A stretch of DNA of 64,000 bases, taken from assembly GCF_004337365.2 (NCBI RefSeq), contig NZ_CP044016.1, positions 2,046,001 to 2,110,000 on the forward strand. Reading direction: 5' to 3'. The stretch comes from Rhizosphaericola mali. GTDB lineage: Bacteria; Bacteroidota; Bacteroidia; Chitinophagales; Chitinophagaceae. Of this stretch, positions 22,010 through 44,017 are shown piece by piece; positions within the stretch are counted from its first letter, which is position 1; each line of letters opens with the position of its first letter. The notes below the pieces were generated by a model. The model had not been told where the DNA came from, made no database searches, and saw nothing but the letters and a program-made list of their open reading frames with translations. The translations under genes were made by a program, and so were the position numbers.

Positions 22010-22024
22010 TCCCAGCGGGATCAC
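22010..22024. repeat. attL: 15-bp direct repeat at the left end of the 22-kb element
   Basis: TCCCAGCGGGATCAC is repeated exactly at 44003-44017. It reads like a tRNA 3' end: T-stem CCCAG, acceptor strand CGGGATC, discriminator A. A hairpin follows it, as one follows the other copy. The integrase-B gene starts 264 bp to the right. No complete tRNA is attached to either copy, so an intact tRNA would lie elsewhere, for instance at the far end of a tandem array. Confidence 0.7.
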
Positions 22025-22068
22025 AGAAAGCAGTAGAACAAAGTTAAACTGATTTCAATAAAATTAAA

Positions 22069-22101
22069 AAAGCCGTGTAAATCAATAGATTACACGGCTT
22101 T
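22069..22101 (+). terminator. hairpin downstream of attL
   Basis: Stem AAAGCCGTGTAA (22069-22080) pairs with 22090-22101 around the loop ATCAATAGA, with A-rich and T-rich flanks. The same loop core recurs in a different stem after the right att copy (44024-44070). It is likely the terminator of the tRNA gene that is rebuilt at the att site. Confidence 0.65.
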
Positions 22102-22161
22102 CTTGTTAAGTGTCGTTAAGTTAAATATTTAAATAATTAAGAACTCCAAGGTGAGCAGATA

Positions 22162-22194
22162 GGTTAGCAACATTTTGTCTAACTTGTGCTAACC
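22162..22194. promoter_or_regulatory. inverted GGTTAGCA motifs: probable integrase arm sites, left end
   Basis: GGTTAGCA at 22162-22169 faces TGCTAACC at 22187-22194. The same 8-mer is found twice in direct orientation at 43924-43931 and 43936-43943, just inside the right att. Tyrosine integrases bind such arm-type repeats with their N-terminal domain. Confidence 0.6.
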
Positions 22195-22287
22195 TTTGAA
22201 AAGCCGAAATGCTTATCCACATTACGTTTCACAAGGTTAAGACAGTAATAAAAATAGTAATGTTTTTCTGTTTTAGCCACAAAAAAA

Positions 22288-23532
22288 ATGTTGGTTATGG
22301 CAAAACTTAATCCCACTTTATCCATCTTATTTTGGCTTAATCGCCAAAGAAGTAAAAACGAAACTTTTCCAATTTACGCCCGTATTACACTGAATGGGAA
22401 GCGGATGGAATTATCCACTCATTTGTATCTAAATCCATCTCAATGGGACCAAAAGAATCAGCGTGTGAAAGGGGCTGGAGAACAATCTCGTAAAATCAAT
22501 ATTTCTCTTACGCAAATTTCAGGTTCCTTGCAGGGATTATATACAAAATTATCTCTACTAGAAAGTCCGATATCATTAGAAATATTGAAAAATACCTATT
22601 TGGGGAAAAAGGTTAATCAAAAAAGTTTGCTGGAAGTCTTTGCTTTGCATAATCAAAGATTCTTCGCAAAAGTCGCATCTGGTCGCAACAGTGATCGTAC
22701 CTACAAAAGATATGAAATAACAAAAGAGAAAGTTTCTACATTCCTAAATGAACAGTATAAGTTAGACGATCTACCGTTGTCTCAAATACAGTTTGGCTTA
22801 GCATCTGATTTCGAACATTACCTGTGTAACGTGACCAAGATTGGTTCCAATACAGCCATGAAATACATCAAAATCACAAAACAGGTTTTGAAGTTCGCTG
22901 TAGATCAAGGATGGATACCCTATAATCCAATTGGAGGATTTAAGTGCAACTATGAAAATCCACAAAGGGAAATTCTAACTATGGAAGAAATTGAAAGAAT
23001 TTATAATAAATCTTTACTACCTAGATTGGCGCAAGTGAGGGATGTATATATATTTTGTTGTTTTACCGGATTAGCATTTACGGATGTAATGCAGCTTACG
23101 GCTAGCAATATTATAACTGGCATGGATGGCGAAAAATGGATTATAACAGATCGTCAAAAAACAGGAACATTGGAAGAAGTTCCGCTTTTACCTGTTGCTC
23201 TTGAAATTTTGGAGAAGTATAGCTGTAATATAGTATTACAGAAAAAGAAACAATTACTTCCTTTATGTAGCAATCAACGCTTTAATGGTTATTTACAGGA
23301 AATTGCAGATATCTGTGGCATAGATAAACATCTTACATCTCATACGGCAAGACATACTTTTGCAACTACCGTTACACTCGAAAATGATGTACCAATTGAA
23401 ACAGTTAGCCGAATGTTGGGACATAAAAGCATTCGGACTACTCAAATTTATGCGAAAATAACCCGAAAGAAGATTAGCAACAATATGCGCACTTTAAAAG
23501 ACAAACTTAAAATGGGTAGTGAAGCACACTAA
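22288..23532 (+). CDS. tyrosine site-specific recombinase (integrase B)
   Basis: This 414-residue integrase has an arm-binding N-terminal domain (SILFWLNRQRSKNETFPIYA), a SAM-like core-binding domain (about 110-210) and a catalytic domain. The catalytic domain shows the second box HTARHTFATTVTLEND, GHKSIRTTQIYAKI with the final His and the nucleophilic Tyr, and a first box FCCFTGLAFTDVMQLT. In that first box the usual Arg position reads Ala-Phe-Thr-Asp. This TGLAFTD variant is common in Bacteroidota integrases. It reads inward from the left att and is the enzyme expected to move the 22-kb element. ATG 22297 is an alternative start. Confidence 0.9.
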   Translation: MLVMAKLNPTLSILFWLNRQRSKNETFPIYARITLNGKRMELSTHLYLNPSQWDQKNQRVKGAGEQSRKINISLTQISGSLQGLYTKLSLLESPISLEILKNTYLGKKVNQKSLLEVFALHNQRFFAKVASGRNSDRTYKRYEITKEKVSTFLNEQYKLDDLPLSQIQFGLASDFEHYLCNVTKIGSNTAMKYIKITKQVLKFAVDQGWIPYNPIGGFKCNYENPQREILTMEEIERIYNKSLLPRLAQVRDVYIFCCFTGLAFTDVMQLTASNIITGMDGEKWIITDRQKTGTLEEVPLLPVALEILEKYSCNIVLQKKKQLLPLCSNQRFNGYLQEIADICGIDKHLTSHTARHTFATTVTLENDVPIETVSRMLGHKSIRTTQIYAKITRKKISNNMRTLKDKLKMGSEAH

Positions 23533-23831: not shown

Positions 23832-24988
23832 TTATTTCATGCTTCGTTTTTGGTAGTTTATCGCAAATATAAATATGGAAGTTATTGCCCCAATAATAGC
23901 TGATGTTAAAAATGCATATTGTATATGAGTAAATAGTTCTGTAAAAAATGAGGACAAGAATTGCCCCCCAAAAATTCCCATAGAATAATATCCTAGATTT
24001 TTTCCTCTTTCTTCTGAACTGCTACTCTGAACCATCCAATGATTTAATAACGGAACGGTCATTCCAAATCCAATTCCCATGCTAATCGCGCCACAAAATA
24101 ATAAAGGTACATTTGAAGCCACATAAAAAAGTAAAAGTCCAATCATAAAAAAAAGAAAACCTGTACCAATTGTGGGCTCTGTACCAATTTTAAAAACAAA
24201 TTTTGGCATCTGACTTGCACATATCACGGCAACCAATGATATGAAAGCCATAAAGTAACCCGTTTGTGATTCCGAAAACTTAAACATCTCTGGAAGCAAT
24301 AAGGGTAAACCAACAAATGCTGTAAAAAACAAGATCATCGATACTAAAGAACATAAGACTATAATGCATACAATGCTTGTTTTCTTTGTATTTGTTTTAT
24401 TGACATTTAAGTCATGGCTTGTTTTAGGAATTATAGTTATTTGCGGAATAGATATTTTTTGCAATATCAAACAAATAAAAGCAATAAGATAAATTGCGAA
24501 GGGGTAAAACCAGTCCATTCCACCCAATATACCTCCAACACTAAGAAAAACAACGCCGCCTAATCTATAGCCATGCCTTGCCATGCTATCATTTTCATTC
24601 TCTTTTCCCCTTGAAAAAGTTCAGCTATCAATACAGTCCCTGATGCCTGTATTGCTGCTGTAGCTCCACCTAGTAAAATACGATCAATAACAACCAATGA
24701 TGGGTATTTTAAAAATGCACCTCCAAAACCAAATATTGCATAAGGTATCAAACCTAAAATCATCATATTATATGCACCTTTTCGATCTATTAATCGCCCC
24801 ATTACAGGTGCAAATAATACCACTCCCAATGATGGCAAAGTGACAAGCCATCCTGGACTTTTTGAAAATCCAAGTTGCGCGGCTATTTGGTATAATGATG
24901 GAGCTATTACAGTACCAACCATAATTGTTAAGCTACTGATAAGAAGAATCGTAAAGATTCCAGTATTAGACACTTTTAAATTTTGCAT
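23832..24988 (-). pseudogene. MFS transporter broken by a single-base frameshift
   Basis: Two overlapping frames together make one MFS drug/metabolite exporter of about 385 residues and 12 membrane segments. The first frame starts at ATG 24988, shows the loop motif APVMGRLIDRKGAYN, and stops at 24560. The second continues with LGGVVFLSVGGILGG in the next frame to 23832. Adding one T to the run at about 24560-24563 restores a continuous protein. The gene is divergent from the AraC gene at 25114, a common regulator/transporter pairing. It is either a true pseudogene or a sequencing error in a short T run. Confidence 0.8.
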
Positions 24989-25113
24989 ATTTAAAATTTT
25001 ATGCAAAGGTCATTATATAACCTTATCCTATTGTTATCTTATTTCCCAAATAGCTAGTACAATTTGGAAATTTAATAAACTGGGTATAGTTTTAGATAAA
25101 TAATTTGAATTAA

Positions 25114-25941
25114 ATGAAATTTCAAAATATCAAATCGACTAACTATAGTCACCTTTTAGATCCTTCTAAGTTTGTGGTTTCAGAATTAACCCAAAATCAT
25201 AATAATAAAATATTTAAAACGAATCAAGTTCTATTGTTTAAGATGTTTTGGTATCATGAGAATATTAATAGAAATGAGGATGCCTCCCGACTTAATACTA
25301 TATTATTCGTACCTCCTTCACAAACGTTAAACAAATCTATTTTTTATGAGGAAGGGTTTATTATCGCATTTGACAGAGAATATCTTCAAGAAGACGATAA
25401 AGAATTTTCAATAGATGTCTTCAATCTCTTTAATTCAGATGAACAAAATCGAAAACTAATTATATCAAAAGAGGTTGAAGATAATCTAAATCATGTTATG
25501 CAATTAATGAGATTTGAGGTAGATAATGAGTTTGGAAGTTTTTTAGTATTAAAACCACTCGTTAAGGTCTTTCTATTGCAGTTAATACGATTGTCTCAAA
25601 ACAAGTTTTTAAAACAGGACGTTCATCAGAAAAGAATTTATCAGTTTTTAATGTTATTGGAAGAGAATTTTATAACTCAAAGGAAATGCAGTTTTTATGC
25701 CAACCACTTAGGTTTAAGTGCTAAAAGATTAAATCAGATATTAAACACTAAAATGAATACAACTGTCACTCAACAGATTCATTCAAGGCTGTTACTAGAA
25801 GCGAAAAGAATGTTGGTAGAAAGTGAATTGACAATCAAGGAAATTGCGTACAATCTTCAATTTAATGATCATTCTTATTTTAGCCGATTTTTTAAAAAAA
25901 ATAGTGGCTTTACTCCAGAAGAATATAAAAAGCATAATTAA
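25114..25941 (+). CDS. AraC-family transcriptional regulator (cargo block)
   Basis: The 275-residue protein has an N-terminal ligand-sensing part (residues 1-165, beta-rich) and a C-terminal double helix-turn-helix of AraC type. The latter is seen in FYANHLGLSAKRLNQILNTK, LTIKEIAYNLQFNDHSYFSR and FFKKNSGFTPEEYKK. It is divergent from the frameshifted MFS gene 107 bp away and most likely regulates it. This layout (AraC, MFS exporter) is typical of Bacteroidota accessory regions. The effector is unknown. Confidence 0.85.
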   Translation: MKFQNIKSTNYSHLLDPSKFVVSELTQNHNNKIFKTNQVLLFKMFWYHENINRNEDASRLNTILFVPPSQTLNKSIFYEEGFIIAFDREYLQEDDKEFSIDVFNLFNSDEQNRKLIISKEVEDNLNHVMQLMRFEVDNEFGSFLVLKPLVKVFLLQLIRLSQNKFLKQDVHQKRIYQFLMLLEENFITQRKCSFYANHLGLSAKRLNQILNTKMNTTVTQQIHSRLLLEAKRMLVESELTIKEIAYNLQFNDHSYFSRFFKKNSGFTPEEYKKHN

Positions 25942-26123: not shown

Positions 26124-26723
26124 TTAGAATAGAGTTTGCGGCGTGGTTAGATATGGATAAAATAGACTTTTTAACATTTTACAGTGTTCTCTTACGGCTT
26201 CCTTTCCTTCTTTTCGAAAACTTGCTTCATTATAAGCTATCCAAAAATCACCTACAATAAAAATCTGACGTACTAAATATAAAAATTGCTTCTCTGGTAT
26301 ATCTTTTCGGAATATTTTTTTCTGAACAAGCTGTAGGAAAATTTCTAAAAATTCAACTTTCCTACGCTTATTTATGTCAATGTAAGCACTTCGTATCTTT
26401 TGATTTTTTTGGGATAGAGATTGAAAATTTAAAGGAACAAATTTGTACTTATGTACTAGAACAACGGAATCTACAATAAATTGATTTAGAGAATCCAGTG
26501 AAAAATGGTGCTGATTTTGCAACGTTGCCATTAGCGTATCAAATTCTTTCTCAAATGCATGAAAGAGCTGTATTAAAATGTCTTCTGTGTGTTTAAAATG
26601 GTAGTGTAAATTCCCTGCGCTAATAGCTATATCCTTAGCAATATCTCTAGTTGTGATGTTGTCAATACCGTACTTGTTATATAAAAATCGCGCACTCTCT
26701 AATATTTTTTCTTTTGTAGACAC
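26124..26723 (-). CDS. TetR-family repressor
   Basis: The protein has about 199 residues. The N-terminal TetR helix-turn-helix is clear (KEKILESARFLYNKYGIDNI, then TTRDIAKDIAISAGNLHYHF). The rest is an all-helical ligand/dimerisation domain. GTG 26723 is preferred as start because TTG 26729 lies inside the adjoining palindrome. The divergent small membrane-protein genes begin 55 bp away with a perfect operator between, so the repressor likely controls itself and them. Confidence 0.85.
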   Translation of the reverse strand: MSTKEKILESARFLYNKYGIDNITTRDIAKDIAISAGNLHYHFKHTEDILIQLFHAFEKEFDTLMATLQNQHHFSLDSLNQFIVDSVVLVHKYKFVPLNFQSLSQKNQKIRSAYIDINKRRKVEFLEIFLQLVQKKIFRKDIPEKQFLYLVRQIFIVGDFWIAYNEASFRKEGKEAVREHCKMLKSLFYPYLTTPQTLF

Positions 26724-26726
26724 ATC

Positions 26727-26754
26727 CAAAATTAGAACAAATGTTCTAATTTTG
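26727..26754. promoter_or_regulatory. perfect 13-bp inverted repeat: TetR operator
   Basis: CAAAATTAGAACA (26727-26739) and its exact reverse complement (26742-26754) are separated by AA. This 28-bp palindrome sits between the divergent TetR gene and the gene at 26779. Its size and place match an autoregulatory TetR operator covering both promoters. Confidence 0.8.
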
Positions 26755-27721: not shown

Positions 27722-28021
27722 TTATTTCTTAGTTTTTTTCTTTGGCTTTACATTCAAAGCTTCACTGACGGCTTTGCCAGCTTTAAATTTAGCCACTTTA
27801 CTAGCTTTTATTTTGATAGTCTCACCAGTTTGAGGGTTGCGACCATCGCGTGCTGAACGCTCAGATACACTAAAAGTACCAAAGCCAATTAATGTAATAG
27901 AATCACCACCAGCCAATGTTTCGGTTACTGATTGGGTAAATGCATCTAATACTTTAGCCGCATCAGTTTTAGTTGTACCTGATTTAGAAGCCAAAAGATC
28001 AATTAATTCAGATTTGTTCAT
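27722..28021 (-). CDS. HU/IHF-family DNA-bending protein
   Basis: This 99-residue HU family protein is recognised by MNKSELIDLLASKSGTTKTD, the beta-arm region GFGTFSVSERSARDGRNPQT and a basic C-terminus (KPKKKTKK). HU proteins bend DNA, and tyrosine recombinase excision complexes commonly need them or IHF. Its presence inside the element, near the integrase, may supply that accessory function, but host-type nucleoid roles are equally possible. Confidence 0.9.
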   Translation of the reverse strand: MNKSELIDLLASKSGTTKTDAAKVLDAFTQSVTETLAGGDSITLIGFGTFSVSERSARDGRNPQTGETIKIKASKVAKFKAGKAVSEALNVKPKKKTKK

Positions 28022-28295: not shown

Positions 28296-29252
28296 ATGCT
28301 CCATCATTCAAATCTATTAGTTAATATGCGTAAATTAGAGAATCAATCAATTATCCCAATCATGACACTTATCCCTAATTTTTCAGGCAGCTTGTTTTGG
28401 CGTACCATGAAGGCGTCCTTATTTGGCAGAACAGAAACCTCTAATCAACCTGGGAACTTCAAATCCTATTTCCAGTATCAAATAGGAAAGAATAGTACCG
28501 GATATGATTTGTTCTTTTCCAAGGAGCCTAATGCGCAGCAGTATTACAACGAAGCATTTGGTAAGATGGCAGGCTACTTACCCATTGAGATGTCTGATTT
28601 TCTTTCGTACCATTATCAGGCGTACACCAACAATGAAGAATTTTTACATTTCCTGACATTAGAATTAGCACACAGAATAAGAAATGCAGGTTCTCAAGCA
28701 TACAGAAAGAAACTCGAAATAGCTGTCGATTGGCTAAATACACAAAAAGATACACGTTTGGAGGTAAACAGAAATGCTATGAGAGTGTCTGTAAGAGCAG
28801 ATTTGGATACGGTTTTAGCTCAAAGCGAAAAAGAGGCTCTATCTGCAGAGAGGATGGAGGAAATTGTTGGAAATCTAGCTATCCGAATGGAAGATAGAAT
28901 GAATAGCGTCATAGATTCCGCAGAAAACGAAATACAACAAATAACCAGTGGACTTAGCACAGGAAATATCCAATTGTCCAATCGAGAACACGAAGGTCTT
29001 ATAATACGATTTTTTATCCTCTTACAACAAGTACAAGCTCCAAGTTCTAACAATAATGAATCTATAAAATATTTGTTTGCTAATTTTTCTAAAACAGATT
29101 TAGCAGCTTTTTTACGAATGCACTTTGAAGCCTTTCGAAGCTACAAGACGAGCACGCTCCAAAAGATGATTACCTCACAACAAGAGCGAATCAAACCTCA
29201 ACACGAAAAGGTGAAACAATTGGAAGAGGCTATGGTTAATTTTTTTTATTGA
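28296..29252 (+). CDS. hypothetical protein of the mobile element
   Basis: The 318-residue soluble protein belongs to no family I recognise. The N-terminal 120 residues contain aromatic-rich segments (SFQYQIGKNSTGYDLFF would be typical; the sequence reads FKSYFQYQIGKNSTGYDLFF). Residues 140-318 are mainly helical, with long amphipathic stretches that may form coiled coils (QQERIKPQHEKVKQLEEAM). ATG 28326 or a later Met may be the true start. It precedes the zeta toxin module on the same strand. Confidence 0.55.
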   Translation: MLHHSNLLVNMRKLENQSIIPIMTLIPNFSGSLFWRTMKASLFGRTETSNQPGNFKSYFQYQIGKNSTGYDLFFSKEPNAQQYYNEAFGKMAGYLPIEMSDFLSYHYQAYTNNEEFLHFLTLELAHRIRNAGSQAYRKKLEIAVDWLNTQKDTRLEVNRNAMRVSVRADLDTVLAQSEKEALSAERMEEIVGNLAIRMEDRMNSVIDSAENEIQQITSGLSTGNIQLSNREHEGLIIRFFILLQQVQAPSSNNNESIKYLFANFSKTDLAAFLRMHFEAFRSYKTSTLQKMITSQQERIKPQHEKVKQLEEAMVNFFY

Positions 29253-29413: not shown

Positions 29414-29635
29414 ATGGAAGAAACGTTAAAAGATTTAAAAGACGAAGAATTGGTTTCCTTTGGAACTATGGATAAGTCCCCTTCGAATATGTCTGAAAAG
29501 GAATATGAAGAATGGAAGATAAAAAGTAAAGACTTTGTGCGTGAATATCTCTTTTCTATTAATCAACCACTCGTCTATGAAAAGGACGGCGTGATGGTTG
29601 CAGAGTATAAAAATGGAAAAGTTGTAAATATATAG
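29414..29635 (+). CDS. probable antitoxin of the zeta-like toxin
   Basis: The 73-residue acidic protein (MEETLKDLKDEELVSFGTMD) ends 5 bp before the zeta-like kinase gene. Small size, acidity and tight linkage fit an antitoxin. It has no recognisable similarity to streptococcal epsilon by eye, so the role rests on context. The C-terminal segment EKDGVMVAEYKNGKVV looks beta-hairpin-like. Confidence 0.55.
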   Translation: MEETLKDLKDEELVSFGTMDKSPSNMSEKEYEEWKIKSKDFVREYLFSINQPLVYEKDGVMVAEYKNGKVVNI

Positions 29636-29640
29636 CTTAT

Positions 29641-30333
29641 ATGGCCAGAATTTACATTATCGCAGGTGCTCCTGGTGCGGGAAAAAGTACATCTGGTAGA
29701 CTCTTCATACCCAAGGGATTGGAAATTCTGGACTCTGATGATATGTCCCTAAAGTATAAAATAGCTGGCTATACAGATTTCAAAGAAATGGGGCAGCTTA
29801 AATTCAATCGGATATTTAACAATCGACTTTTCTCAAATGCGAATTTTGCCATAGAACTTAATCTAGGGTTTGAACACCATTACAATTATGTAAAAAGAAT
29901 TAAACAGGTCAATTCTGAAAATGAAATAATAGTTGTACTGTTCCATACTGATGATGTAAATCTTTGTCTGGATAGGGCAAAAATGAGAGCGGAAAATGGC
30001 AGACATTTCGTAGCTCCAGATGTTATACAAAGTATGTATGATAATATATTTCCTCTATTCAATAAATATAAAGATCGCTTTAGTGGTCTTATTGCTGTGA
30101 ATGTAGAAAAAACGGGTAATACATATATTAGCATGGAGTATGACTTCAAAAACAAAAAAGCATTGCCAACACTACCTCTTCCAGATTGGGTTAAAAGAGA
30201 ATTTAAAGAACTCATTCGGGATTTGAGTCCCCAAATAAAAAGATTACCACGCCGTAATCCACTACCTCCCCTGACGACCCCGATGAACCTAAAAAAAGTA
30301 GAGGTTTTAGACGCTAAGCTGTTCTTTTCATAA
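29641..30333 (+). CDS. zeta-toxin-like P-loop kinase
   Basis: The 230-residue P-loop protein has Walker A GAPGAGKST at residues 9-17, a Walker B-like ILDSDDM, and the zeta-type segment NGRHFVAPDVIQSMY near residue 120. Zeta toxins phosphorylate UDP-N-acetylglucosamine and block wall synthesis. Others of this family act on other small molecules. The likely antitoxin gene lies 5 bp upstream. In an integrative element such a pair would stabilise inheritance. The basic C-terminal tail (KRLPRRNPLPP) is unusual for zeta. Confidence 0.75.
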   Translation: MARIYIIAGAPGAGKSTSGRLFIPKGLEILDSDDMSLKYKIAGYTDFKEMGQLKFNRIFNNRLFSNANFAIELNLGFEHHYNYVKRIKQVNSENEIIVVLFHTDDVNLCLDRAKMRAENGRHFVAPDVIQSMYDNIFPLFNKYKDRFSGLIAVNVEKTGNTYISMEYDFKNKKALPTLPLPDWVKREFKELIRDLSPQIKRLPRRNPLPPLTTPMNLKKVEVLDAKLFFS

Positions 30334-30548: not shown

Positions 30549-30647
30549 TAAGAAGGTTTGTATCAAGAATGCTGGCAGCTTTCGACGGCATATGCTCACT
30601 GTGTTCCGCTATTCCACGTTCTACCAGCCTTCTTGCAAACCTTCTTA
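30549..30647 (+). promoter_or_regulatory. large conserved hairpin ahead of radC (copy B)
   Basis: A 12-bp perfect outer stem (30549-30560 with 30636-30647) continues into a 15-bp inner stem with two mismatches (30564-30578 with 30621-30635). The loop of about 40 nt is nearly identical to that of copy A (5857-5952). The two copies differ in the stems yet both pair. CACTAAGCTAAG before it, and CTGTTACACAAAAACAG between it and the ATG at 30677, are also conserved. Confidence 0.75.
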
Positions 30648-30676
30648 TGACGCTGTTACACAAAAACAGTATAAAA

Positions 30677-31168
30677 ATGAAAAAGTACAGCACCATCCAA
30701 GAATTAGAAAATGAACAATCTCATTGGTCAGAACTACAAGAAGTGAAGTTGTCCTATCGTAATAAACTCAAAGCATCTCAAAGACCCAAAATCAATCAGT
30801 CTGAAGATGCTTTGACCCTGTTTAGATCCGTATGGAACGAAAATGAAATGGAACTTGTAGAATCCTTTAAAATGCTTTTAATGAATAATGCCAATAGAGT
30901 GCTTGGTGTATACCATAGTTCTACTGGAGGTTCTACAGGAACTATAGTTGATATTCGCATCTTACTTACGGTAGCTTTAAAATGTAATTCCTGTAAATTG
31001 ATTGTTGCGCATAACCATCCGAGTGGGAACCTTACTCCAAGCCAAGCCGATCTGAAAATGACAGAAAAATTAAAGGAGGCTGCAAAATTGATGGACATTA
31101 CTTTGTTAGATCATTTGATTCTTACCACTGATAGTTATCAATCTTTTGCCGATGAAGGACTCTTATAA
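30677..31168 (+). CDS. RadC-like JAB/MPN domain protein (copy B)
   Basis: This 163-residue short RadC carries the JAMM motif HNHPSGNLTPSQAD. It is close to copy A at 5339-5827, sharing for example NRVLGVYH and TLLDHLILTTDSYQSFA. ATG 30677 is chosen since upstream codons fall in the conserved hairpin. It is located in the element between the zeta module and the mob genes. Keeping its own hairpin in a different gene order from copy A shows that hairpin and radC travel as one unit. Confidence 0.85.
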   Translation: MKKYSTIQELENEQSHWSELQEVKLSYRNKLKASQRPKINQSEDALTLFRSVWNENEMELVESFKMLLMNNANRVLGVYHSSTGGSTGTIVDIRILLTVALKCNSCKLIVAHNHPSGNLTPSQADLKMTEKLKEAAKLMDITLLDHLILTTDSYQSFADEGLL

Positions 31169-31398: not shown

Positions 31399-31698
31399 AT
31401 GGAAAAATTATTCATCCCCACAGAAGAAGACTTTCGACGTTGGATTGCAGAAGCATTGGAAAGCTCCTTGCGAAAACTTCCACAAATATTAAAAACGCCC
31501 ATGAATGAACCAGAAAAACTACTCAATCGCAAAGAGGTGGCAGGTATTTTTCAAATCTCTTTGGTGACACTACACCAATGGATGCATCAGGGCTTGCCTT
31601 TTCACAAACAAGGCGGAAGAGTTTACTTTCTGCGCTCAGAAGTGATGCATTATTTGAAAGATAAAAATCCCAAACAATTGCAAAATCGCATTGCTTAA
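31399..31698 (+). CDS. helix-turn-helix (HTH_17/excisionase-like) protein
   Basis: The 99-residue protein has an excisionase-type winged helix-turn-helix at residues 45-90 (LLNRKEVAGIFQISLVTLHQ, then a wing GGRVYFLRSEVMHYLKD). The N-terminal 40 residues are helical. Such proteins in Bacteroidota elements act as excisionase or as regulator of mobilisation. The next gene's ATG lies 20 bp downstream. Module A has a counterpart at 8438-8653. Confidence 0.75.
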   Translation: MEKLFIPTEEDFRRWIAEALESSLRKLPQILKTPMNEPEKLLNRKEVAGIFQISLVTLHQWMHQGLPFHKQGGRVYFLRSEVMHYLKDKNPKQLQNRIA

Positions 31699-32062: not shown

Positions 32063-32384
32063 ATTACTTGAGTGTATTTAAGTTTCATTGGGCGGGTGAA
32101 AAGAAAAAGAAATTTCAAATTTATACTTTTCATTTTATTGAATCTTGTTGTAAGGTGATAGTTGCTCTTTTACAAACATCCTGATACTATCATCTTAAAC
32201 TTTTGCACTAATATGTTTTAAAGATTTTATAGGGGACAAAAAAGTAGAAAATCAATTCTCTTCAAATTCAACTAGCAAAATAAATGGCGGGCATACGCCT
32301 ATAAGTAAAATCGTTTCTGGCAATATCCATTGCATTTCTTCCTATCAAGAGAGATTGGTAAGCTATTGACATCGTTCGTTCGAT

Positions 32385-32422
32385 GAGCCAGATGTACTGT
32401 TGTATGACAACAGACCTGGCTC
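32385..32422. other. compound palindrome upstream of mob module B (oriT candidate)
   Basis: GAGCCAG (32385-32391) pairs with CTGGCTC (32416-32422). Nested inside, CTGTTGT (32397-32403) pairs with ACAACAG (32407-32413) around a 3-nt loop. It lies in a 444-bp gene-free stretch (32063-32506), 85 bp before the MobC-like gene. That is where a transfer origin is expected. The rest of the stretch shows only short repeats (TCGTTCGTTCGATG, TCGC ... GCGA). Confidence 0.5.
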
Positions 32423-34671: not shown

Positions 34672-36309
34672 ATGAAAGACCTATTTAATAACTTAATTAG
34701 TCCGACTTCCAATATAGCGAATATCACTTACATTTTTTGCCACGAGTTAAAAGTTACAATTACAAAAACGACTCTTCAAAAAGAGTTGGAGGAACATCCA
34801 GATTATCCTAGCTTATTGTCCATAAGTGATGTTTTAAAAAGTTTAGGTGTAGAAAATTTTGCAATTAAAAAAGAAATTGAAAATTTTTCAGAATTTCCTG
34901 TTCCATTTATAACGCAACTTAAGATAGGTCACGAAAATCTTTTCTCAGTTGTTTTTAATACAAGCAACAATCAGATTTTTTTTTGGCATCCAATAGAAAA
35001 GAAAAAAATAAGTTTATCTTATGGTCAATTCAATGAATTGTTTAGTGGTTATATTTTGTTGGCTGAAGCTTCTGATATGGCAGGAGAGACGGATTATGCA
35101 AAACATCTAAAACATGAGAAGGTAAGCCAAATTAAAAAGATTATTTCGCTATTGTCGATGCCTCTTTTAACAATTATAGCATGCGTTATTTGTTTTGTAA
35201 GTTTTGAGATTTCTGCATTCCCTGCTGTGGTGTACACATTGCTTGCATTAGCAGGTACTTTTATAGGGACATTATTGCTTTGGTATGAAGTGGATAAGTA
35301 TAATCCCGCTCTACAACAAATTTGCTCTAGAGGAAAGAAAACGAATTGCAATGCAATCTTGAGTTCCACAGGTTCCTCTATTTTTGGCATTAGTTGGAGC
35401 ACTATTGGCTTTACTTATTTCGCTGGAATGTTAATAAGTTTGCTTGTGTCGGGAATATATAACCGGACTAATTTGGATATTCTTATATGGTTGAGTGTAT
35501 TAGCATTGCCTTATATTATATTCTCTATTTATTACCAAGCAAAAATTGCAAAACAATGGTGCACTTTGTGTTTAACTGTACAAGCGATTTTAGCTTTACA
35601 GTTTATGTGCGTATTTTTTGGGGGATATTACAAAACGTTTAATATTACTAATATTCATGTTTTAAATGTATTTATTGTACTACTCTCATTTACAATTACG
35701 TTTCTGATTGTAAGTATTTTATTGCCTGCTTTACGTTCTGCGAGGGAAAATAAACAAAACAAAAATGAATTACAAAGGTTAAAGCATAATCCGCAGATAT
35801 TTAATACCTTACTTATTAAGCAAAGGTCAATCAGCGAGCCTTCGGATGGCTTGGGTATTAGTTTGGGACATCCTAATGCAAAATATAAATTGATTAAAGT
35901 TTGTAACCCTTATTGTGGCCCGTGTGCTAAAGCTCACCCCGCTATCGAAGAATTATTAAAAAACAATCCAGATGTTCAAGTACAAATAATATTTACAGCC
36001 TCAGATGATGAAAAGGATATTAAAGCATATCCTGTAAAACATTTGCTCGCAATAGCTGGAATGAATAATAAACAACAGACAAAACAAGCGCTTGATGATT
36101 GGTATTTGGCAGATAAAAAGAATTATGGCTTATTTGCTGCTAAATATCCAATGAACGGTGAATTAAACCAACAAGGAGAAAAAGTAAAAGCAATGAGGCA
36201 ATGGTGCAACAAGACAGAGATTGCTTTTACACCTACTTTTTTTTTAAATGGTTATCTGTTACCAGAACAGTATTCAGTAACAGATTTAAAATATTTACTT
36301 TCTGTTTAA
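34672..36309 (+). CDS. C39-like/VKOR/thioredoxin fusion: disulfide-forming maturation protein of the bacteriocin
   Basis: The 545-residue membrane protein has three modules. Residues 1-135 resemble a peptidase C39 domain without the usual CG..C nucleophile motif, probably a leader-binding rather than cutting domain. Residues 155-355 form a vitamin K epoxide reductase membrane domain with Cys218/Cys226 and the CTLC motif at 297-300. Residues 395-545 are a thioredoxin/DsbA-like domain with CGPC at 415-418 and the cis-Pro segment FTPTFF. Such fusions drive oxidative folding of exported peptides. The precursor gene 490 bp downstream has six cysteines, which gives the enzyme an obvious substrate. 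Confidence 0.8.
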   Translation: MKDLFNNLISPTSNIANITYIFCHELKVTITKTTLQKELEEHPDYPSLLSISDVLKSLGVENFAIKKEIENFSEFPVPFITQLKIGHENLFSVVFNTSNNQIFFWHPIEKKKISLSYGQFNELFSGYILLAEASDMAGETDYAKHLKHEKVSQIKKIISLLSMPLLTIIACVICFVSFEISAFPAVVYTLLALAGTFIGTLLLWYEVDKYNPALQQICSRGKKTNCNAILSSTGSSIFGISWSTIGFTYFAGMLISLLVSGIYNRTNLDILIWLSVLALPYIIFSIYYQAKIAKQWCTLCLTVQAILALQFMCVFFGGYYKTFNITNIHVLNVFIVLLSFTITFLIVSILLPALRSARENKQNKNELQRLKHNPQIFNTLLIKQRSISEPSDGLGISLGHPNAKYKLIKVCNPYCGPCAKAHPAIEELLKNNPDVQVQIIFTASDDEKDIKAYPVKHLLAIAGMNNKQQTKQALDDWYLADKKNYGLFAAKYPMNGELNQQGEKVKAMRQWCNKTEIAFTPTFFLNGYLLPEQYSVTDLKYLLSV

Positions 36310-36798: not shown

Positions 36799-37065
36799 AT
36801 GATGCAAGTATTATCTTCTGATAATAATATTTATGTACTTACTAAAGATGAATTACGAAATATTACAGGTGGGCTTGCAGAACCAACGTGTCCTGAAAAC
36901 ACTGTTGCGTGCACCTGCCGTGATGCAGGTGGAAATGTAAATATAGCGTTTGATGTGAATGCTTCTAGTGCAGTACAAGCGGCCGCAATTGCGAATAAGT
37001 ATTGTGAAGGACAGGGAGTTGGCGGTTCGGGGGGGTATACCTGCAATAGCGATTGGAGTTGTTAA
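36799..37065 (+). CDS. GG-leader, six-cysteine bacteriocin-like precursor peptide
   Basis: The 88-residue precursor has a double-glycine leader at residues 1-25 (VLTKDELRNITGG). The predicted core of 63 residues has cysteines at 31, 38, 40, 69, 82 and 88, enough for three disulfides, and a Gly-rich stretch (GQGVGGSGGY). The leader motif with Leu/Asp-Glu-Leu before GG is what C39 transporters recognise in Bacteroidota. The C39-VKOR-Trx gene upstream and C39 ABC/HlyD/TolC genes downstream complete the system. ATG 36802 is an alternative start. Antibacterial action is inferred; a signalling peptide is the main alternative. A separate self-immunity gene is not obvious. Confidence 0.8.
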   Translation: MMQVLSSDNNIYVLTKDELRNITGGLAEPTCPENTVACTCRDAGGNVNIAFDVNASSAVQAAAIANKYCEGQGVGGSGGYTCNSDWSC

Positions 37066-37119: not shown

Positions 37120-37485
37120 ATGATTATGGTAAGGAAAAATCTGCTAATTACTTCAATAATTTTGTTGTCTCTATCATTATATGGATTCAATCGTATAAAT
37201 TATAATGTTAATATCAAGTTTAATAGTTCTATAAGGACTAATAAAGAGCTAAAAGATTCTACTAAGCAATTTAAAAATATTAGAGATTTCATTGTAAGTC
37301 AAAATTTTAATGGGGTCGTAGTATTTAGAGGCAAGGTTTTATCTCCAAATGATTCATTACTTTATATTGACCTAAAAGCATCTGGTATCAACCCCTCTTC
37401 AGTTGATTTTCTGAGGAAAGTACCTTCTGATTCTTTACTTAAATATGGGCTTGAAGCAAAAAAAGGATTATTGATCATTAATTAA
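37120..37485 (+). CDS. small exported protein with a TonB-plug-like C-terminus
   Basis: The 121-residue protein has a signal peptide or anchor (LLITSIILLSLSLYGF). The last 55 residues (GKVLSPNDSLLYIDLKASGI, then NPSSVDFLRKV and LLKYGLEAKKGLLIIN) follow the pattern of the plug end of TonB receptors. In those, 'YVVDG...INPxDIxSIEVLK...YGxxAxNGVIxI' is usual. It has no barrel. It begins 55 bp after the precursor gene, so it belongs to the bacteriocin unit. Immunity by mimicking or occupying a receptor, or a role in export, are both guesses. Confidence 0.6.
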   Translation: MIMVRKNLLITSIILLSLSLYGFNRINYNVNIKFNSSIRTNKELKDSTKQFKNIRDFIVSQNFNGVVVFRGKVLSPNDSLLYIDLKASGINPSSVDFLRKVPSDSLLKYGLEAKKGLLIIN

Positions 37486-38300: not shown

Positions 38301-38846
38301 GGGCTTCCTACAAAAACAAGTAGATGCTTCATTTTTACCGTATATTTCATTTTGCAGAAATTATCAAAGTACAGTAATATAAGATTGCACTTTTTTTACA
38401 AATTTTAGTTTCTATTTCAGAAATCCTTGATTTAAAGTCTTTTTGGAAGATATCGAAAAAATATAAAGGTTGGAAGGTTTTGTTAATTTGAATTTATATA
38501 AACAGATTGTAGAGATTAGAATGAAACTTGATTAATAAATGAAAAGGCGAAAATTGCAATTATAGTCCAAATACTGTTTTTTAGAGTAGATACTATGAAA
38601 AAGATCATATAATCTTATGCAAGTTTTCATATATAGTTCAAATAATTCTTTGGCCTAGTCTTCTCTTACCCATTTTTAATAGAAATAATAAAAAATCTAC
38701 AAAAAAATGGAGGGGAGATTTTGAATCAAATTATCTTAACATAATAGCTATCCCCGTATAATTGCTTTAACCTAAAAGGATAAGTAGTAAATAAATAGTT
38801 CATATACAGATTATTTCTTTCTGTATATGTGAAAATATCTGGAAAG

Positions 38847-41087
38847 ATGAAATTTTCTTTTTATAAACAACTGAATACCATGGATTGTGGTCCCACCTGT
38901 TTGAAAATGGTGGCAAAATATTATGGAAAAAGCATTCCTATCGATTTTCTCCGACGGCAAATGGGCTTCAATAAAACAGGGGTTACTTTGTTGGGAATAA
39001 GTACAACAGCTGAGTATTTTGGGTTTCGTACAAGAGGGGTTCAATTAACAGAATCACAAATAAGTGAGATTCCGTTGCCAGCAATATTGCACTGGGACCA
39101 AAACCATTTTGTTGTTCTAATATCAAATAAAAGGAATAGTGTAAGAATTGCCAACCCTGCTGCTAGGATCATGGATTATTCAAAGGATGATTTTTTATCG
39201 CATTGGTTAAGTAGTAAAACAAATGATGGCAGCAAGGCAGGTATAGCCCTTTTGCTGGAACCTACCCCTAAATTCAACGAACAGGAGGATAAAAAAGAAC
39301 AAAAACTCAGTTGGAAATTAATAGTTCGATATCTATATAACAGCAAAGGAAAAATCGGACAGGTATGTGTTGCGCTTTTAGTCTCTTCCTTATTACAACT
39401 CGTCTTTCCTTTCTTAACCCAAAGCATTGTTGACACCGGAATAAATACGCAGAATCTCCAGTATGTAGTAATTGTATTGATGGCTCAGTTAATGCTAACT
39501 TTCAGTCAGACAGTCATCGACTTTATACGTAGCAGGATATTACTTCGACTTTCTAACCTACTCAACATACAAATACTATCCGATTTTTGGATCAAATTGG
39601 GACGTCTACCTTTGTCTTATTATGATACACACCATACGGGTGATACGCTTCAGCGCATTGGTGATCACAGAACCATACAAAGCTTCCTAACTGGAACTGC
39701 CTTGAGTACAGTCTTCTCAACAGTTAACTTTGTTGTCTATTCTATCGTTTTACTTATGTATAGTGTGGAGTTGTTTTTTGTTTTTTTAATAGGCAGTATT
39801 GTCTATTTTTCATGGGTACAACTGTTTTTACGAATCAGAAGAAAAATTAACTATCAAACATTTCATATCTCATCTAAGGAAAACAATGCGACCCTTCAAA
39901 TGATACAAGGGATGCAGGAAATTCGTCTCAATAATGCAGAAAGACAAAAACGTTGGGAATGGGAGAATATACAGGCTACTATATTCAGACTTGGTTTTAA
40001 AAGCCTCAATTATAGTCAGTGGCAATCGGCTGGAGCTACATTGATCAATCAGGTACAAAACATTGCGATTAGTTTTATTGTAGCAAAGCTCGTCATTGAT
40101 GGTAAATTGACACTGGGAACTATGTTAGCCGTCCAATACATCATTGGACAAATGAGTGGACCTATTTCTCAATGGGTTGGTTTTGTGCAATCAGCTCAGG
40201 ATGCAAAAATAAGTATGGAGCGTCTTAATGAAGTACATAGTCTTTCTGATGAAGAATCTCCAGAACGAAGCTATACTTCTATGCTTCCAACTGACAAGAG
40301 TATATCTATTGAAAAATTAAGTTTTTCTTATCCTGGTGCGGGAAATGAAAATGTATTGGAACAAATTAACCTATATATCCCCTCTGGTAAAACGACTGCA
40401 ATAGTTGGCATCAGTGGTAGTGGTAAAACAAGTCTACTTAAATTGCTTCTTAAGATCTACGAGCAATATAACGGTGATATTTTTATAGGAGGTAATCACT
40501 CATTAAGCCAAGAAGGTAATTTTGATAAACAAGATGAAAGTAATGGATTAAGATTCGACCATATTAATCATTCTTATTGGAGAAGTATATGTGGTACCGT
40601 CATGCAAGATGGTTATATATTTAACGATACAATAGCCCGCAATATTTCTGTCGGACAGGAAAATATAGACATGGAAAGGCTTACTTATAGTTGTAGAACG
40701 GCTAATATTTATTCTTTTATAGAATCTCTTCCGAACGGATTTTATACAAAACTGGGAAGTGAGGGTACAGGGCTCAGTCAGGGACAGAAACAACGCCTGT
40801 TAATTGCTAGAGCCATTTATAAAGATCCACAATATTTGTTTTTTGACGAAGCAACAAATTCTTTAGATGCAAACAATGAAAAAGAAATTGTAGAGAACCT
40901 GGAACGTTTTTTTAAAGGACGTACGGTCGTTATTGTTGCACACAGATTAAGCACTGTTAAAAATGCGGACAAGATTGTCGTGCTACATAAAGGTCATATT
41001 GTGGAAGAGGGGACACATGATTATCTTATTTCAATCAAAGGTTATTATTACGAGTTAGTCAAAAATCAATTGGAATTAGGTAACTAA
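38847..41087 (+). CDS. C39 peptidase-containing ABC bacteriocin exporter
   Basis: The protein is 746 residues from ATG 38847 (GTG 38829 is less likely). Residues 1-135 are the C39 leader peptidase, with catalytic Cys14 (MDCGPTCLKMVAKYYGK) and His87 (WDQNHFVVL). The third triad position reads Asn103 (RIANPAA) where Asp is usual. Residues 150-440 are the six-helix ABC membrane domain. The ATPase domain has Walker A GISGSGKTS, signature LSQGQKQRLLIARAI and Walker B YLFFDEATNSLD. It would cleave the precursor after GG and export the core through HlyD and TolC partners encoded next in the operon. Confidence 0.9.
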   Translation: MKFSFYKQLNTMDCGPTCLKMVAKYYGKSIPIDFLRRQMGFNKTGVTLLGISTTAEYFGFRTRGVQLTESQISEIPLPAILHWDQNHFVVLISNKRNSVRIANPAARIMDYSKDDFLSHWLSSKTNDGSKAGIALLLEPTPKFNEQEDKKEQKLSWKLIVRYLYNSKGKIGQVCVALLVSSLLQLVFPFLTQSIVDTGINTQNLQYVVIVLMAQLMLTFSQTVIDFIRSRILLRLSNLLNIQILSDFWIKLGRLPLSYYDTHHTGDTLQRIGDHRTIQSFLTGTALSTVFSTVNFVVYSIVLLMYSVELFFVFLIGSIVYFSWVQLFLRIRRKINYQTFHISSKENNATLQMIQGMQEIRLNNAERQKRWEWENIQATIFRLGFKSLNYSQWQSAGATLINQVQNIAISFIVAKLVIDGKLTLGTMLAVQYIIGQMSGPISQWVGFVQSAQDAKISMERLNEVHSLSDEESPERSYTSMLPTDKSISIEKLSFSYPGAGNENVLEQINLYIPSGKTTAIVGISGSGKTSLLKLLLKIYEQYNGDIFIGGNHSLSQEGNFDKQDESNGLRFDHINHSYWRSICGTVMQDGYIFNDTIARNISVGQENIDMERLTYSCRTANIYSFIESLPNGFYTKLGSEGTGLSQGQKQRLLIARAIYKDPQYLFFDEATNSLDANNEKEIVENLERFFKGRTVVIVAHRLSTVKNADKIVVLHKGHIVEEGTHDYLISIKGYYYELVKNQLELGN

Positions 41088-41108: not shown

Positions 41109-42476
41109 ATGCCAAACAAGGATATTGACAATATAGAAACAAGATTAGACGATATAGCAAGCGGACGATGTAATTCTGAAATAGAAATAAATCAAAAAGA
41201 ATCTATTGTCATTAGATCCGAAGAAGCACAAGAAATAATCGATCATAAAAGTGGCCCTTTAGAAAGATGGGCGCTATGGATATTTTTATGTATATTATTA
41301 CTTTTACTAACAACTTCTGGGTTTATTCTCTATCCTGATATCCTTCAAGTAAGAACTACACTCACCTCATTGGATGGCCCTAAAGAAATCGTACCAAATC
41401 AGTCAGGAAGAATTACTCAACTCTTTGTAACAAATGGGCAAACAATAAGAAAAGGAGCAACATTAGCTTACATAGAAAGTGTTGCAGATATCGATCAAAT
41501 GTTGTCCCTATTTAAACGGGTAGAAAAAGCTAATCAATTACTAACAGATAATAAGCTCGGAGATATTTCTTCATTATTTCTACAGCCCTATGATCAATTA
41601 GGTGAAGATCAAAGCGCTTATCAAACCTTTATGACTGCCTTACAACAATTCAATGACTATTACGTCAACGGCTTTTATGATAGAAAAAAAACAATGTTAG
41701 AACAAGATCTGGGTGCATTAAAGAAAATGAATAATGCGCTTGGACAACAACGTCAAATTGAAGAACAGGATAATGAGCTTGCGCAGGAGAATTATAAAAT
41801 GAACAAAAAACTCTTTGATGCTAAAATTATATCTGCTGAAGAATATCGACAAGATCAAAGTCAATTGCTAAGTAAGCAAATGGCACTACCACAAACGAAT
41901 TCTAGCATATTTTCTAATCAAAATGAACAACGTGAAAAACTAAAAGATCTCGAACAGCTGGATCATGATGTAATACAACAGCGTATAACAATGGAGCAAG
42001 CACTACAAACACTAAAAAGTGCGTTAGATACCTGGATAAAGCAATATGTACTTATTGCTCCAGTGGATGGTACTGTATATTTTTCAAAACCCATACAAAA
42101 AAATCAATACCTACAATCAGGTAAAACAATCGGTTATATAGCTACTGATAACAATAAACTCTTTACAGAATTATATTTACCTCAAAATAATTTAGGAAAG
42201 GCCGATACTGGTATGGAAGTACAGTTGCGCTTTGATGCATATCCATATCAAGAAAAGGGAATAGTAAAAGGCAAGCTTATATATATATCGAGAGTAGTAT
42301 CGGATAGTGGCTACCTCGGAATTGTAAGACTCAATAATGGCTTACTTACAAGTCAACATCAAATCCTTCCATACAAGGACGGACTTAAGGCGGATGCATT
42401 AATTATAACAAAGAATATGAGCTTATTGAACAGACTATATTATAATATTACAAAAGCAACGAGTCTCAATAAATGA
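41109..42476 (+). CDS. HlyD-family periplasmic adaptor of the bacteriocin exporter
   Basis: This 455-residue membrane fusion protein has a cytoplasmic N-tail with one transmembrane helix near residues 56-78. A split biotinyl-lipoyl-like domain follows (VPNQSGRITQLFVTNGQTIR ... YVLIAPVDGTVYFSKPIQKN). Between its halves is a long coiled-coil hairpin (residues 150-310, rich in Gln/Leu/Lys). The C-terminal beta-barrel comes last. It bridges the ABC exporter and the outer-membrane channel. The gene begins 21 bp after the exporter stop. Confidence 0.9.
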   Translation: MPNKDIDNIETRLDDIASGRCNSEIEINQKESIVIRSEEAQEIIDHKSGPLERWALWIFLCILLLLLTTSGFILYPDILQVRTTLTSLDGPKEIVPNQSGRITQLFVTNGQTIRKGATLAYIESVADIDQMLSLFKRVEKANQLLTDNKLGDISSLFLQPYDQLGEDQSAYQTFMTALQQFNDYYVNGFYDRKKTMLEQDLGALKKMNNALGQQRQIEEQDNELAQENYKMNKKLFDAKIISAEEYRQDQSQLLSKQMALPQTNSSIFSNQNEQREKLKDLEQLDHDVIQQRITMEQALQTLKSALDTWIKQYVLIAPVDGTVYFSKPIQKNQYLQSGKTIGYIATDNNKLFTELYLPQNNLGKADTGMEVQLRFDAYPYQEKGIVKGKLIYISRVVSDSGYLGIVRLNNGLLTSQHQILPYKDGLKADALIITKNMSLLNRLYYNITKATSLNK

Positions 42477-42518
42477 TTTTTTTAATAATATAAAAGGATA
42501 CGAATAAAGATTTGGATC

Positions 42519-43859
42519 ATGCTTAGAACACAAAATTATATAGGATGGAGCTGTATTATAATTTTTTTCTTGTGTCTTTCATTACAAGGAAAGGCTCAAA
42601 AAACATGGACGTTAGACGATTGTATCGACTATGCTTACGAACATAATATATACATTAATTCTGCTAAAATGCAGGTGTTGACGATGGAAAACACCTATAA
42701 GCAATCACGTAATAATCGATTTCCAACACTTAGCTATTCTTCATCACTCGCCTCACAATTTGGTCGTTCAATTGATCCTACTACAAATTCTTATACGAAT
42801 ACTCATATTACCTATAACAGTATGGGATTCTCATCTGGTATAACACTCTTTAACTGGTTCTCGGTTAAAAATACGATTAAGTGTAATAGTAAAAATGTGG
42901 AGGTAGCAAATCTGGAGACTGAAAGACTCAAAAATGATTTGAAGCTTAATATTGCAGCAGCCTATTTACAAGTTTTACTTGCAGAAAAACAATTAGAAAT
43001 CTCCCAACAGCAGATTGACCTTACATTACAGCAACTTGACATAACAAGTAAACAGGTAGAATATGGGAAAAAACCCAAAAGTGACCGCCTACAAATCGTC
43101 GGAGAACTATCATCGGATAGTACTACTTATTTTAATCAATTATCAGCAATACAACAAGCCAAATTACAAGTCATGCTTTTATTGAATATAGATCCTCAAG
43201 ATGGCTTTGAAATAAATAAAGCAGATACCGTTGTAGAAAATCAACTGCCTATATTAGAAGAACCTGAATATATATATGAAATCGCTAAAATAAAACAACC
43301 CCTTCAAAAAGAAGATAAACTAAAATTAGAAGCATTGGGTTATCAAAAGGCTATATCAAAGGCTAGTTTTTACCCTACACTATCAGCTAATGCTACGATA
43401 TCTTCTAATTACTCAAATGCATATACAAATAGTTATGGAAACCCCTATAGTTATTTTAACCAGCTATTCAATATTAACTTATATCAATATGTCGGTCTTT
43501 CATTGAGCATCCCAATTTTTAATAATAAGACGGCCTATTACAATTATAAAAATATCTGTGTACAAATAAAAACACAACAACTTCAAAACGAAGGAGACAA
43601 TCAACAACTCAAACAAGATATTTATAATGCATATAATACGGCACACACAAATTTATCCGTTTATATGTCAACTAAGAGGACGCTGAATGCAACACAAGAA
43701 GGTTATATGATGTCACAAAAAAGATTTGAGATAGGCAAGTCGACTTTATCAGATTATTTAACTGCACTAAATACTTTATATCAAGCAAAAACAAATTATA
43801 TTAACGCCTATTATAACTATATCTTTTCGTTCAAAATATTGGCGTTTTATAAAGTTTAA
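42519..43859 (+). CDS. TolC-family outer-membrane channel of the bacteriocin exporter
   Basis: The 446-residue protein has a signal peptide (IIIFFLCLSLQGKAQ) and two repeats of the outer-membrane efflux domain. The first starts at TWTLDDCIDYAYEHNIYINS. The second ends with SQKRFEIGKSTLSDYLTALN and a final transmembrane-strand segment. It completes the type I export path across the outer membrane. It is the last gene of the operon, 42 bp after hlyD-like, and sits 65-85 bp before the right-end arm sites of the element. Confidence 0.9.
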   Translation: MLRTQNYIGWSCIIIFFLCLSLQGKAQKTWTLDDCIDYAYEHNIYINSAKMQVLTMENTYKQSRNNRFPTLSYSSSLASQFGRSIDPTTNSYTNTHITYNSMGFSSGITLFNWFSVKNTIKCNSKNVEVANLETERLKNDLKLNIAAAYLQVLLAEKQLEISQQQIDLTLQQLDITSKQVEYGKKPKSDRLQIVGELSSDSTTYFNQLSAIQQAKLQVMLLLNIDPQDGFEINKADTVVENQLPILEEPEYIYEIAKIKQPLQKEDKLKLEALGYQKAISKASFYPTLSANATISSNYSNAYTNSYGNPYSYFNQLFNINLYQYVGLSLSIPIFNNKTAYYNYKNICVQIKTQQLQNEGDNQQLKQDIYNAYNTAHTNLSVYMSTKRTLNATQEGYMMSQKRFEIGKSTLSDYLTALNTLYQAKTNYINAYYNYIFSFKILAFYKV

Positions 43860-43923
43860 GGATACCTGTATTTTGTGTATTAATGATCAAATTAATATAC
43901 TTATCTTCGATAATATAAAAATA

Positions 43924-43943
43924 GGTTAGCATTTCGGTTAGCA
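43924..43943. promoter_or_regulatory. two direct GGTTAGCA motifs: probable integrase arm sites, right end
   Basis: GGTTAGCA lies at 43924-43931 and 43936-43943, a 12-bp period, 60 bp inside the right att repeat. The same 8-mer is present as an inverted pair near the left end (22162-22194). Confidence 0.6.
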
Positions 43944-44002
43944 AATAAATATTTTAATATTTAAGAAAGTTTTATTCACGGCATTAGTTATTATAGTATG
44001 AC

Positions 44003-44017
44003 TCCCAGCGGGATCAC
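44003..44017. repeat. attR: 15-bp direct repeat at the right end of the element
   Basis: TCCCAGCGGGATCAC is identical to 22010-22024 and is followed by a hairpin. It marks the right boundary of the integrative element. The sequence before it (TTATTATAGTATGAC) is not tRNA-like, so this copy is only a 3'-end fragment. Confidence 0.7.

Follow-up and report, generated by a model that had tools for sequence, protein, structure and literature searches.

Integrative and mobilisable elements (IMEs) that sit in tandem have been described, including a case at a tRNA-Lys gene in Streptococcus agalactiae, and so have mobilisable elements that carry bacteriocin genes, such as GIE492 (microcin E492, 22.3 kb) and Tn6104 (lantibiotic genes, 15.6 kb) (PMC5704250). 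The kind of element reported here is therefore already known. Bacteroidetocins, in turn, were acquired horizontally; bacteroidetocin B is found on a 96-kb conjugative element, and a neighbouring thiol oxidoreductase has been proposed to form the disulfides (PMC6671954). Here we analyse a 64-kb stretch of the Rhizosphaericola mali genome (the window; contig NZ_CP044016.1, positions 2,046,001 to 2,110,000), in which positions 22010–44017 very probably hold an IME of a family that we call Y, one of two families (X and Y) stacked behind two tRNA-Lys genes. Elements are labelled by array (A1 or A2) and family, and the element in the window is A2Y2. Positions elsewhere in the genome are given as C1:position, C1 being a 4.67-Mb contig.

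Like NBU1, Tn4555 and MTnPi of Bacteroidota (PMC5704250), A2Y2 combines a site-specific integrase with relaxase mobilisation and would rely on a helper. Unlike them, it targets tRNA-Lys, lies in alternating arrays and carries bacteriocin-type cargo with its own exporter. It shares with the S. agalactiae composite (PMC5704250) distantly related integrases, one tRNA-Lys target and a tandem order, whereas here two parallel arrays comprise three and four full elements, and each array holds a copy of one recently duplicated element. GIE492 and Tn6104 (PMC5704250) are similar in size and also have bacteriocin cargo, but A2Y2 belongs to another phylum and its peptide type differs, as judged by the gene set. 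A double-glycine cysteine-containing peptide, a peptidase ABC exporter and a thiol oxidoreductase are features in common with the bacteroidetocins (PMC6671954). Bacteroidetocins A and B have a 15-amino-acid (aa) leader, a 42-aa mature peptide and four cysteines (PMC6671954), whereas the A2Y2 precursor has a 25-aa leader and a 63-aa core with six cysteines, and its oxidoreductase is a C39-like/VKOR/thioredoxin fusion, which places it outside that group.

Among the papers listed in our literature searches, whose coverage leaves out most subscription journals, none dealt in its title or abstract with the arrays, arm sites or islands described here. One genome presents two parallel stacks of elements with competition-type cargo, with one element caught twice without substitutions. 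The rules of stacking, that is, the places of insertion and the role of the arm motif, therefore become testable in a single strain.

Target site and organisation of the two arrays

An exact 15-bp repeat marks both ends of A2Y2, at 22010–22024 (+), the junction with the X element A2X2, and at 44003–44017 (+), the junction with a remnant of an X-type left end. These are the sole matches in the 64 kb when up to two mismatches are allowed (0.02 expected). ARAGORN identifies the 15-mer as the 3' end of tRNA-Lys(TTT). Both the repeat and its origin from a tRNA had been proposed in a first-pass annotation, and the search that it recommended, for a tRNA gene of the genome ending in the 15-mer, returned two intact tRNA-Lys(ttt) genes, at C1:1121801 and C1:1961114.

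Genome-wide, the 15-mer occurs ten times, always on the same strand. ARAGORN detected no tRNA-Lys at the remaining eight copies, within the stretches read, and none of its tRNA predictions falls in the window. A search pattern written for the tRNA version of the 15-mer matches two genome sites only, both of them the intact tRNA-Lys genes. Nine of the ten copies delimit two arrays. Array 1 runs from the tRNA through X (30.2 kb), Y (19.9 kb) and X (42.2 kb) to a Y left-end remnant, and array 2 from the tRNA through X (30.1 kb), Y (38.6 kb), X (38.2 kb) and Y (22.0 kb) to an X-type left-end remnant. A2Y2 is the fourth of the four full elements of array 2 and its most distal, 107 kb from the tRNA of the array, which lies upstream outside the window; both of its flanks are other elements or remnants. 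In the array stretches fetched, the attachment (att) repeats are direct and an intact tRNA-Lys stands at one end only, the arrangement by which accretion is recognised. The tenth 15-mer, at C1:3155922-3155936, has no tRNA-Lys; it lies between an integrase gene and what is, by eye, an integrase-like gene, about 3–4 kb from two tRNA-Pro genes.

The integrases of the two families are 22% identical, and X and Y alternate in 7/7 neighbour pairs, a small sample in which remnants are counted. This order could also be produced by a larger mobile unit, an X+Y pair or a whole array, in which the internal 15-mers are passengers. An X right end is followed by a Y left end in four of four cases and a Y right end by an X-type left end in three of three, and A2X1 (C1:1961115-1991189), with an integrase frame of 352 aa compared with 410–411 aa in the other three X elements, probably has an integrase gene disrupted near its start and may not move alone. 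However, the identical copies described below comprise Y alone, the X elements adjacent to them differ in length, cargo and sequence, and each of the three full Y copies has full-length integrase and relaxase frames. The X elements retain a relaxase-like frame in four of four cases and a full-length integrase frame in three of four (Pfam was run on A2X2 only). We therefore consider a larger unit unlikely.

A second copy of the element

The strongest support for A2Y2 as a unit comes from A1Y1 in array 1. The two elements have the same 15-mer ends and no substitutions over 19.9 kb, and they differ by two 1-base indels (window positions 22281 and 30268) and by a 2,077-bp deletion in A1Y1, which lacks the segment 34790–36866. 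The ends of this segment share AGG, at which the deletion fuses the gene for the C39-like/VKOR/thioredoxin protein to the precursor gene and destroys both. As pieces of the lost segment occur in A2Y1 at 72–76%, we read A1Y1 as the derived state. Outside the 15-mers, the flanks of the two copies (read by eye) show their first mismatches 16 bp to the left and 7 bp to the right. The left neighbours, A1X1 and A2X2, have six blocks in common (77–97% identity), which add up to about 5 kb of their 30 and 38 kb; the 1.38 kb next to the junction are 96.8% identical. The right neighbours differ. A near-identical copy between the same 15-mers indicates that A2Y2 moved as one unit, and it upholds the earlier proposal of an integrative mobilisable element of 22 kb that has matching att and arm sites and carries bacteriocin-type genes.

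Two other origins of the second copy were weighed. A2Y2 might be a fixed genomic island that was copied from one array to the other by homologous recombination or gene conversion and not by its integrase: the related left neighbours, at 96.8% identity over their last 1.38 kb, would allow pairing, and excision was not observed in a plasmid search and IMG/VR scans. A conversion tract is, however, not expected to end at both att sites, whereas mismatches here set in within 16 and 7 bp of the 15-mers after 19.9 kb without a substitution, and the right neighbours of the two copies are different. On this evidence a fixed island is very unlikely. Near-identity over 20 kb is also hard for assemblers, and the second copy might be a misplaced duplicate of one real element. 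The 2,077-bp deletion, the two indels, the different neighbours and the position of both copies on one 4.67-Mb contig make such an artefact highly improbable.

A1Y1 and A2Y2 are both flanked by X-type ends, and neither adjoins a tRNA. Insertion of Y at an internal 15-mer seems simpler than the later entry of X elements at the tRNA after very recent copying. Y-like integrases lie directly behind tRNA-Lys in relatives, and Y therefore needs no adjacent X.

Arm sites of the Y family

The motif GGTTAGCA occurs at both ends of A2Y2: at 22162..22169 (+) and as an inverted copy at 22187..22194 (−) on the left, and at 43924..43931 (+) and 43936..43943 (+), 12 bp apart, on the right. The window holds six copies in all (1.6 expected), and the other two are far off. 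The inverted left pair and the direct right pair had been noticed before and stand as described; a third left site, the degenerate GGTGAGCA at 22150..22157 (+), 12 bp ahead of the next, had not been named. The sister element A2Y1 has an exact GGTTAGCA in this place, and both A2Y2 and A1Y1 have the degenerate form. At the left end, all three full Y copies thus carry an inverted copy together with a direct pair spaced by 12 bp; at the right end, two direct sites are again 12 bp apart.

With one mismatch allowed, GGTTAGCA was not found within 300 bp of either end of the four X elements. Two of these, A1X1 and A2X2, were scanned for a motif of their own and have ACTTACA spaced 12 bp at the left end and 10 bp at the right, and no inverted ACTTACA copy was found near their ends. 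Because of the 10-bp right spacing and the missing inverted copy, X follows the arm geometry of Y only partly.

Within the bacterial family, the arm triple stands upstream of genes related to the Y integrase at 19 of 37 distinct loci (the locus in the window is one of them, seven were picked for a 15-mer adjoining the integrase, and L060 was left out as the same site as L040). Dinucleotide shuffles predict 0.28 triples for 38 loci, one of them a duplicate. Upstream control spacings of 8–24 bp other than 12 were each met at no more than six loci; downstream of the integrase gene, with stretches shorter than 200 bases skipped, one locus had the 12-bp spacing and no single spacing was seen at more than two. 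The motif itself varies with the integrase: it is GGTTAGCA in G077, GGGTAGG in G003, ACTGGTGCC in G186 and CGGTTACC in G125. The G077 integrase is 56% identical to that of A2Y2, and its gene has one stop. The same motif is present at both ends in all four of these relatives, for which both ends were read (in G125 the match joins a distal pair with the left set at the second tRNA-Lys of that genome), and five other relatives were read at the left end only. Conservation of the arms in relatives, which the first-pass annotation had set as a test of its proposal, was thus observed. By eye, some loci in the bacterial family sit behind other tRNA-like 3' ends.

A tentative and rather doubtful model can be built on these data, in which the 15-bp core serves as an address common to all the elements and the arm motif as a private key. 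Y integrases would keep the geometry while each lineage uses its own word, and X would use another. Private words on a shared core would let stacked elements leave and re-insert without disturbing their neighbours; arrays would grow internally in addition to growing at the tRNA, and alternation would arise since like neighbours recombine each other out.

Genes for integration and transfer

Twenty-two proteins of the element were scanned with Pfam and judged against curated cut-offs. The tyrosine integrase (22288..23532, +) has arm-binding, SAM-like and catalytic domains above cut-off and reads inward from the left end. An HU-type DNA-bending protein (27722..28021, −), also above cut-off, is kept in A2Y1. 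For CTnDOT, DNA bending is supplied by a host factor (no paper listed in our literature search carried its name), and HU could act likewise. Further along are a RadC-like protein (30569..31168, +), with relatives in X and Y elements, and an HTH_17 protein (31399..31698, +), a candidate excision factor.

The MobC/NikA-like accessory protein (32507..32929, +; 46.8 bits, cut-off 27.5) is followed by a MobA/VirD2-type, MobB-like relaxase (32884..34341, +; 93.3 bits, cut-off 24.6). Directly upstream of mobC, a conserved non-coding block (32338..32506, +) is a candidate origin of transfer (oriT). It is nearly unchanged between A2Y1 and A2Y2, the sequence preceding it has diverged, and it holds two short inverted repeats, at 32424–32443 and 32456–32472. 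The inward-reading integrase, HU, the relaxase, the MobC-like protein and the export set named by the first-pass annotation were all recovered above cut-off.

No mating-pore gene was found among the 22 proteins with Pfam, other pore genes not being searched one by one, in accord with the absence noted earlier. An own recombinase with matched att ends, an own relaxase and the lack of a mating pore among the scanned proteins are among the features that define an IME. Outside the element, three TraG-family ATPases score above cut-off (C1:1743858, 2224276 and 3191985); the same search in 14 control genomes gave five weak matches and none above cut-off. Two of the three score identically, at 833.3 bits, and this suggests that a single conjugative element is present twice. 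As three such ATPases are encoded elsewhere in the genome, a helper for the transfer of A2Y2 may be at hand.

A tRNA-directed tyrosine integrase would equally suit a prophage or a phage satellite, and the HTH protein is excisionase-like, with a weak Nu1-like packaging match (19.9 bits, cut-off 30). A2Y2 has, however, a relaxase and MobC, and no other phage-type Pfam match appeared among the 22 proteins scanned (PHROGs were not searched), which makes a phage origin very unlikely.

For an IME, the following course can be proposed. The Y integrase would bind the GGTTAGCA arms at both ends and recombine the 15-bp tRNA-Lys 3' end, and excision would join 22010 to 44003 as a circle. An oriT, most likely directly upstream of mobC, would then be nicked by the relaxase together with MobC, and the strand would leave by a mating pore that a conjugative element at another place in the genome supplies. 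The circle could then re-insert at a 15-mer, possibly within an existing array.

Bacteriocin-type cargo

A C39-like/VKOR/thioredoxin fusion (34672..36309, +) is the proposed disulfide catalyst for the peptide encoded after it, an 88-aa precursor (36799..37065, +) with a 25-aa double-glycine leader and six cysteines in its 63-aa core. The 121-aa protein beside the precursor (37120..37485, +) has no family match above cut-off and is an immunity candidate by position only. The export set consists of a peptidase-containing ABC exporter (38829..41087, +; C39 plus ABC), an HlyD-type adaptor (41109..42476, +) and a TolC-type outer-membrane channel (42519..43859, +). Clustering of a double-glycine leader with a C39-peptidase ABC exporter is the general mark of double-glycine bacteriocins. 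The fusion protein would form the disulfides of the cysteine-rich peptide, and the ABC–HlyD–TolC system would cleave the leader and export the product, as their domains suggest. Gene order and leader type point to an antibacterial peptide, and A2Y2 probably equips its host to produce and secrete it.

An alignment of the VKOR fusion, from which seven of 30 loci were omitted as short or interrupted, keeps the VKOR cysteine pairs and the thioredoxin CxxC in 24/24 rows (23 distinct, the window protein appearing twice). No alignment column of the C39-like part has cysteine in half of the rows, and for this reason we interpret it as a domain that binds the leader but is not a protease. A double-glycine, cysteine-rich precursor lies beside the fusion gene at 14 of the 30 loci (L125-L154), two of them in this genome. 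Among 16 such precursors, 15 have six or eight cysteines and one has seven. The leader pattern behind these counts was self-made, has no random control and was applied to loci that extend only about 1.5 kb to either side. A stricter form, requiring at least three cysteines, missed the precursor of A2Y2 itself; a looser form, used afterwards, gave 13 of the 14 loci, the stricter one adding the other. Looser matches without cysteine (one each in L127, L129 and L135) were set aside as chance. Among the papers listed in literature searches of the coverage given above, none combined mention of VKOR with mention of bacteriocins or of ribosomally synthesised and post-translationally modified peptides.

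A2Y1 has the same chassis as A2Y2, namely integrase, HU, the 318-aa protein described below, RadC, HTH protein, MobC, relaxase and exporter, and a different cargo, with another six-cysteine double-glycine peptide, a LanC-like gene and a glycosyltransferase-like gene. Its hlyD is interrupted by what is, by eye, an IS21-type insertion sequence. The Y elements thus appear as a common chassis with a bacteriocin slot that is exchanged between elements and was destroyed in one copy, A1Y1. The A2Y1 peptide (L012:130-354) has 74 aa and a double-glycine leader, and the cysteine order of its core is C-C-CC-C-C. This order resembles the knottin pattern.

Occurrence in related genomes

The 15-mer is present in 100 of 195 genomes of the same bacterial family, themselves a draw from a larger group, and its tRNA form in 90. 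Fifteen of these 90 hold extra 15-mers without the tRNA form; in a comparison made by hand, the genome studied here has the most (8), followed by one with 4. As this pattern overlooks some forms, among them the intact tRNA-Lys in G077, a few of the extras may in fact be tRNA genes of variant sequence. At E ≤ 1e-60, 68 of the 195 genomes encode a relative of the Y integrase. The nearest named match of the integrase, at 85%, is in an Arachidicoccus metagenome-assembled genome (MAG), and another, at 43%, is in a Chitinophagaceae MAG. A scan of a further collection, genome_contigs, gave four loci. In one of them, L078 of an Arachidicoccus MAG, a Y left end at 87.6% follows a 15-mer that carries a single mismatch. 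The matches there skip from the integrase directly to the relaxase end, and we therefore read this element as internally deleted. The comparison within the genus rests on one further genome, G001, in which an X-type left end lies directly behind tRNA-Lys (L058, G001:C113:3741-3893).

The first-pass annotation had advised a comparison with related genomes that lack the block, and a clean empty site was looked for by three routes. TrhO, which by eye is encoded upstream of the tRNA-Lys of array 2, has matches in 112 of 117 genomes, the own genome included; among the matches listed, of which the best 30 loci were examined, none of the 29 other loci in the bacterial family has an adjacent tRNA-Lys. 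In G001, nothing usable corresponds to the right flank of A2Y2. The gene flank of the tRNA-Lys in that genome matches C1:2643628 (68%), away from both tRNA-Lys genes.

Several results weigh against A2Y2 as a mobile, bacteriocin-bearing IME. None of the three routes yielded a clean empty site with matching flanks, and no copy was found in the PLSDB search or by two exact-pattern IMG/VR scans, nor was a circle junction seen. The arm triple is missing, under the criterion used, at 18 of the 37 loci. The relaxase comes nearest to the Bacteroides MobB model but stays below its cut-off (269.5 compared with 400 bits), and the precursor matches bacteriocin and named leader models only below cut-off.

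Other genes of the element and its surroundings

The first-pass annotation had placed a zeta toxin module at 29414..30333 (+), where a 73-aa open reading frame precedes a P-loop kinase-like protein. The Pfam Zeta_toxin match (E 0.072) reaches 13.0 bits with a cut-off of 22.3, and the assignment is unsupported. A 318-aa protein to which no function was assigned (28296..29252, +) is kept in A2Y1. Cargo genes near the integrase encode an MFS efflux pump in two overlapping frames (23832..25006, −; overlap 24560–24584), which looks frameshifted or broken, an AraC-type regulator (25114..25941, +) and a TetR-type regulator (26124..26729, −).

At the left end, a terminator-like hairpin (22066..22104, +) would follow the tRNA were the element adjacent to it. 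The 65 bp beyond the right att copy (44018..44082, +) are what is left of an X-type left end, or else the ancestral flank of tRNA-Lys. Positions 1..22009 belong to the right part of A2X2 (C1:2029780-2068009), which by Pfam encodes a relaxase, a NikA-like protein, RadC and an RHS repeat, the last belonging to its Rhs-like cargo; its own integrase is at 20617–21852 (−). The Rhs-like proteins of A2X2, with DUF5977 and DUF6443, occupy 10533–19582, and frames of more than 2,000 aa in two other X elements look similar by eye.

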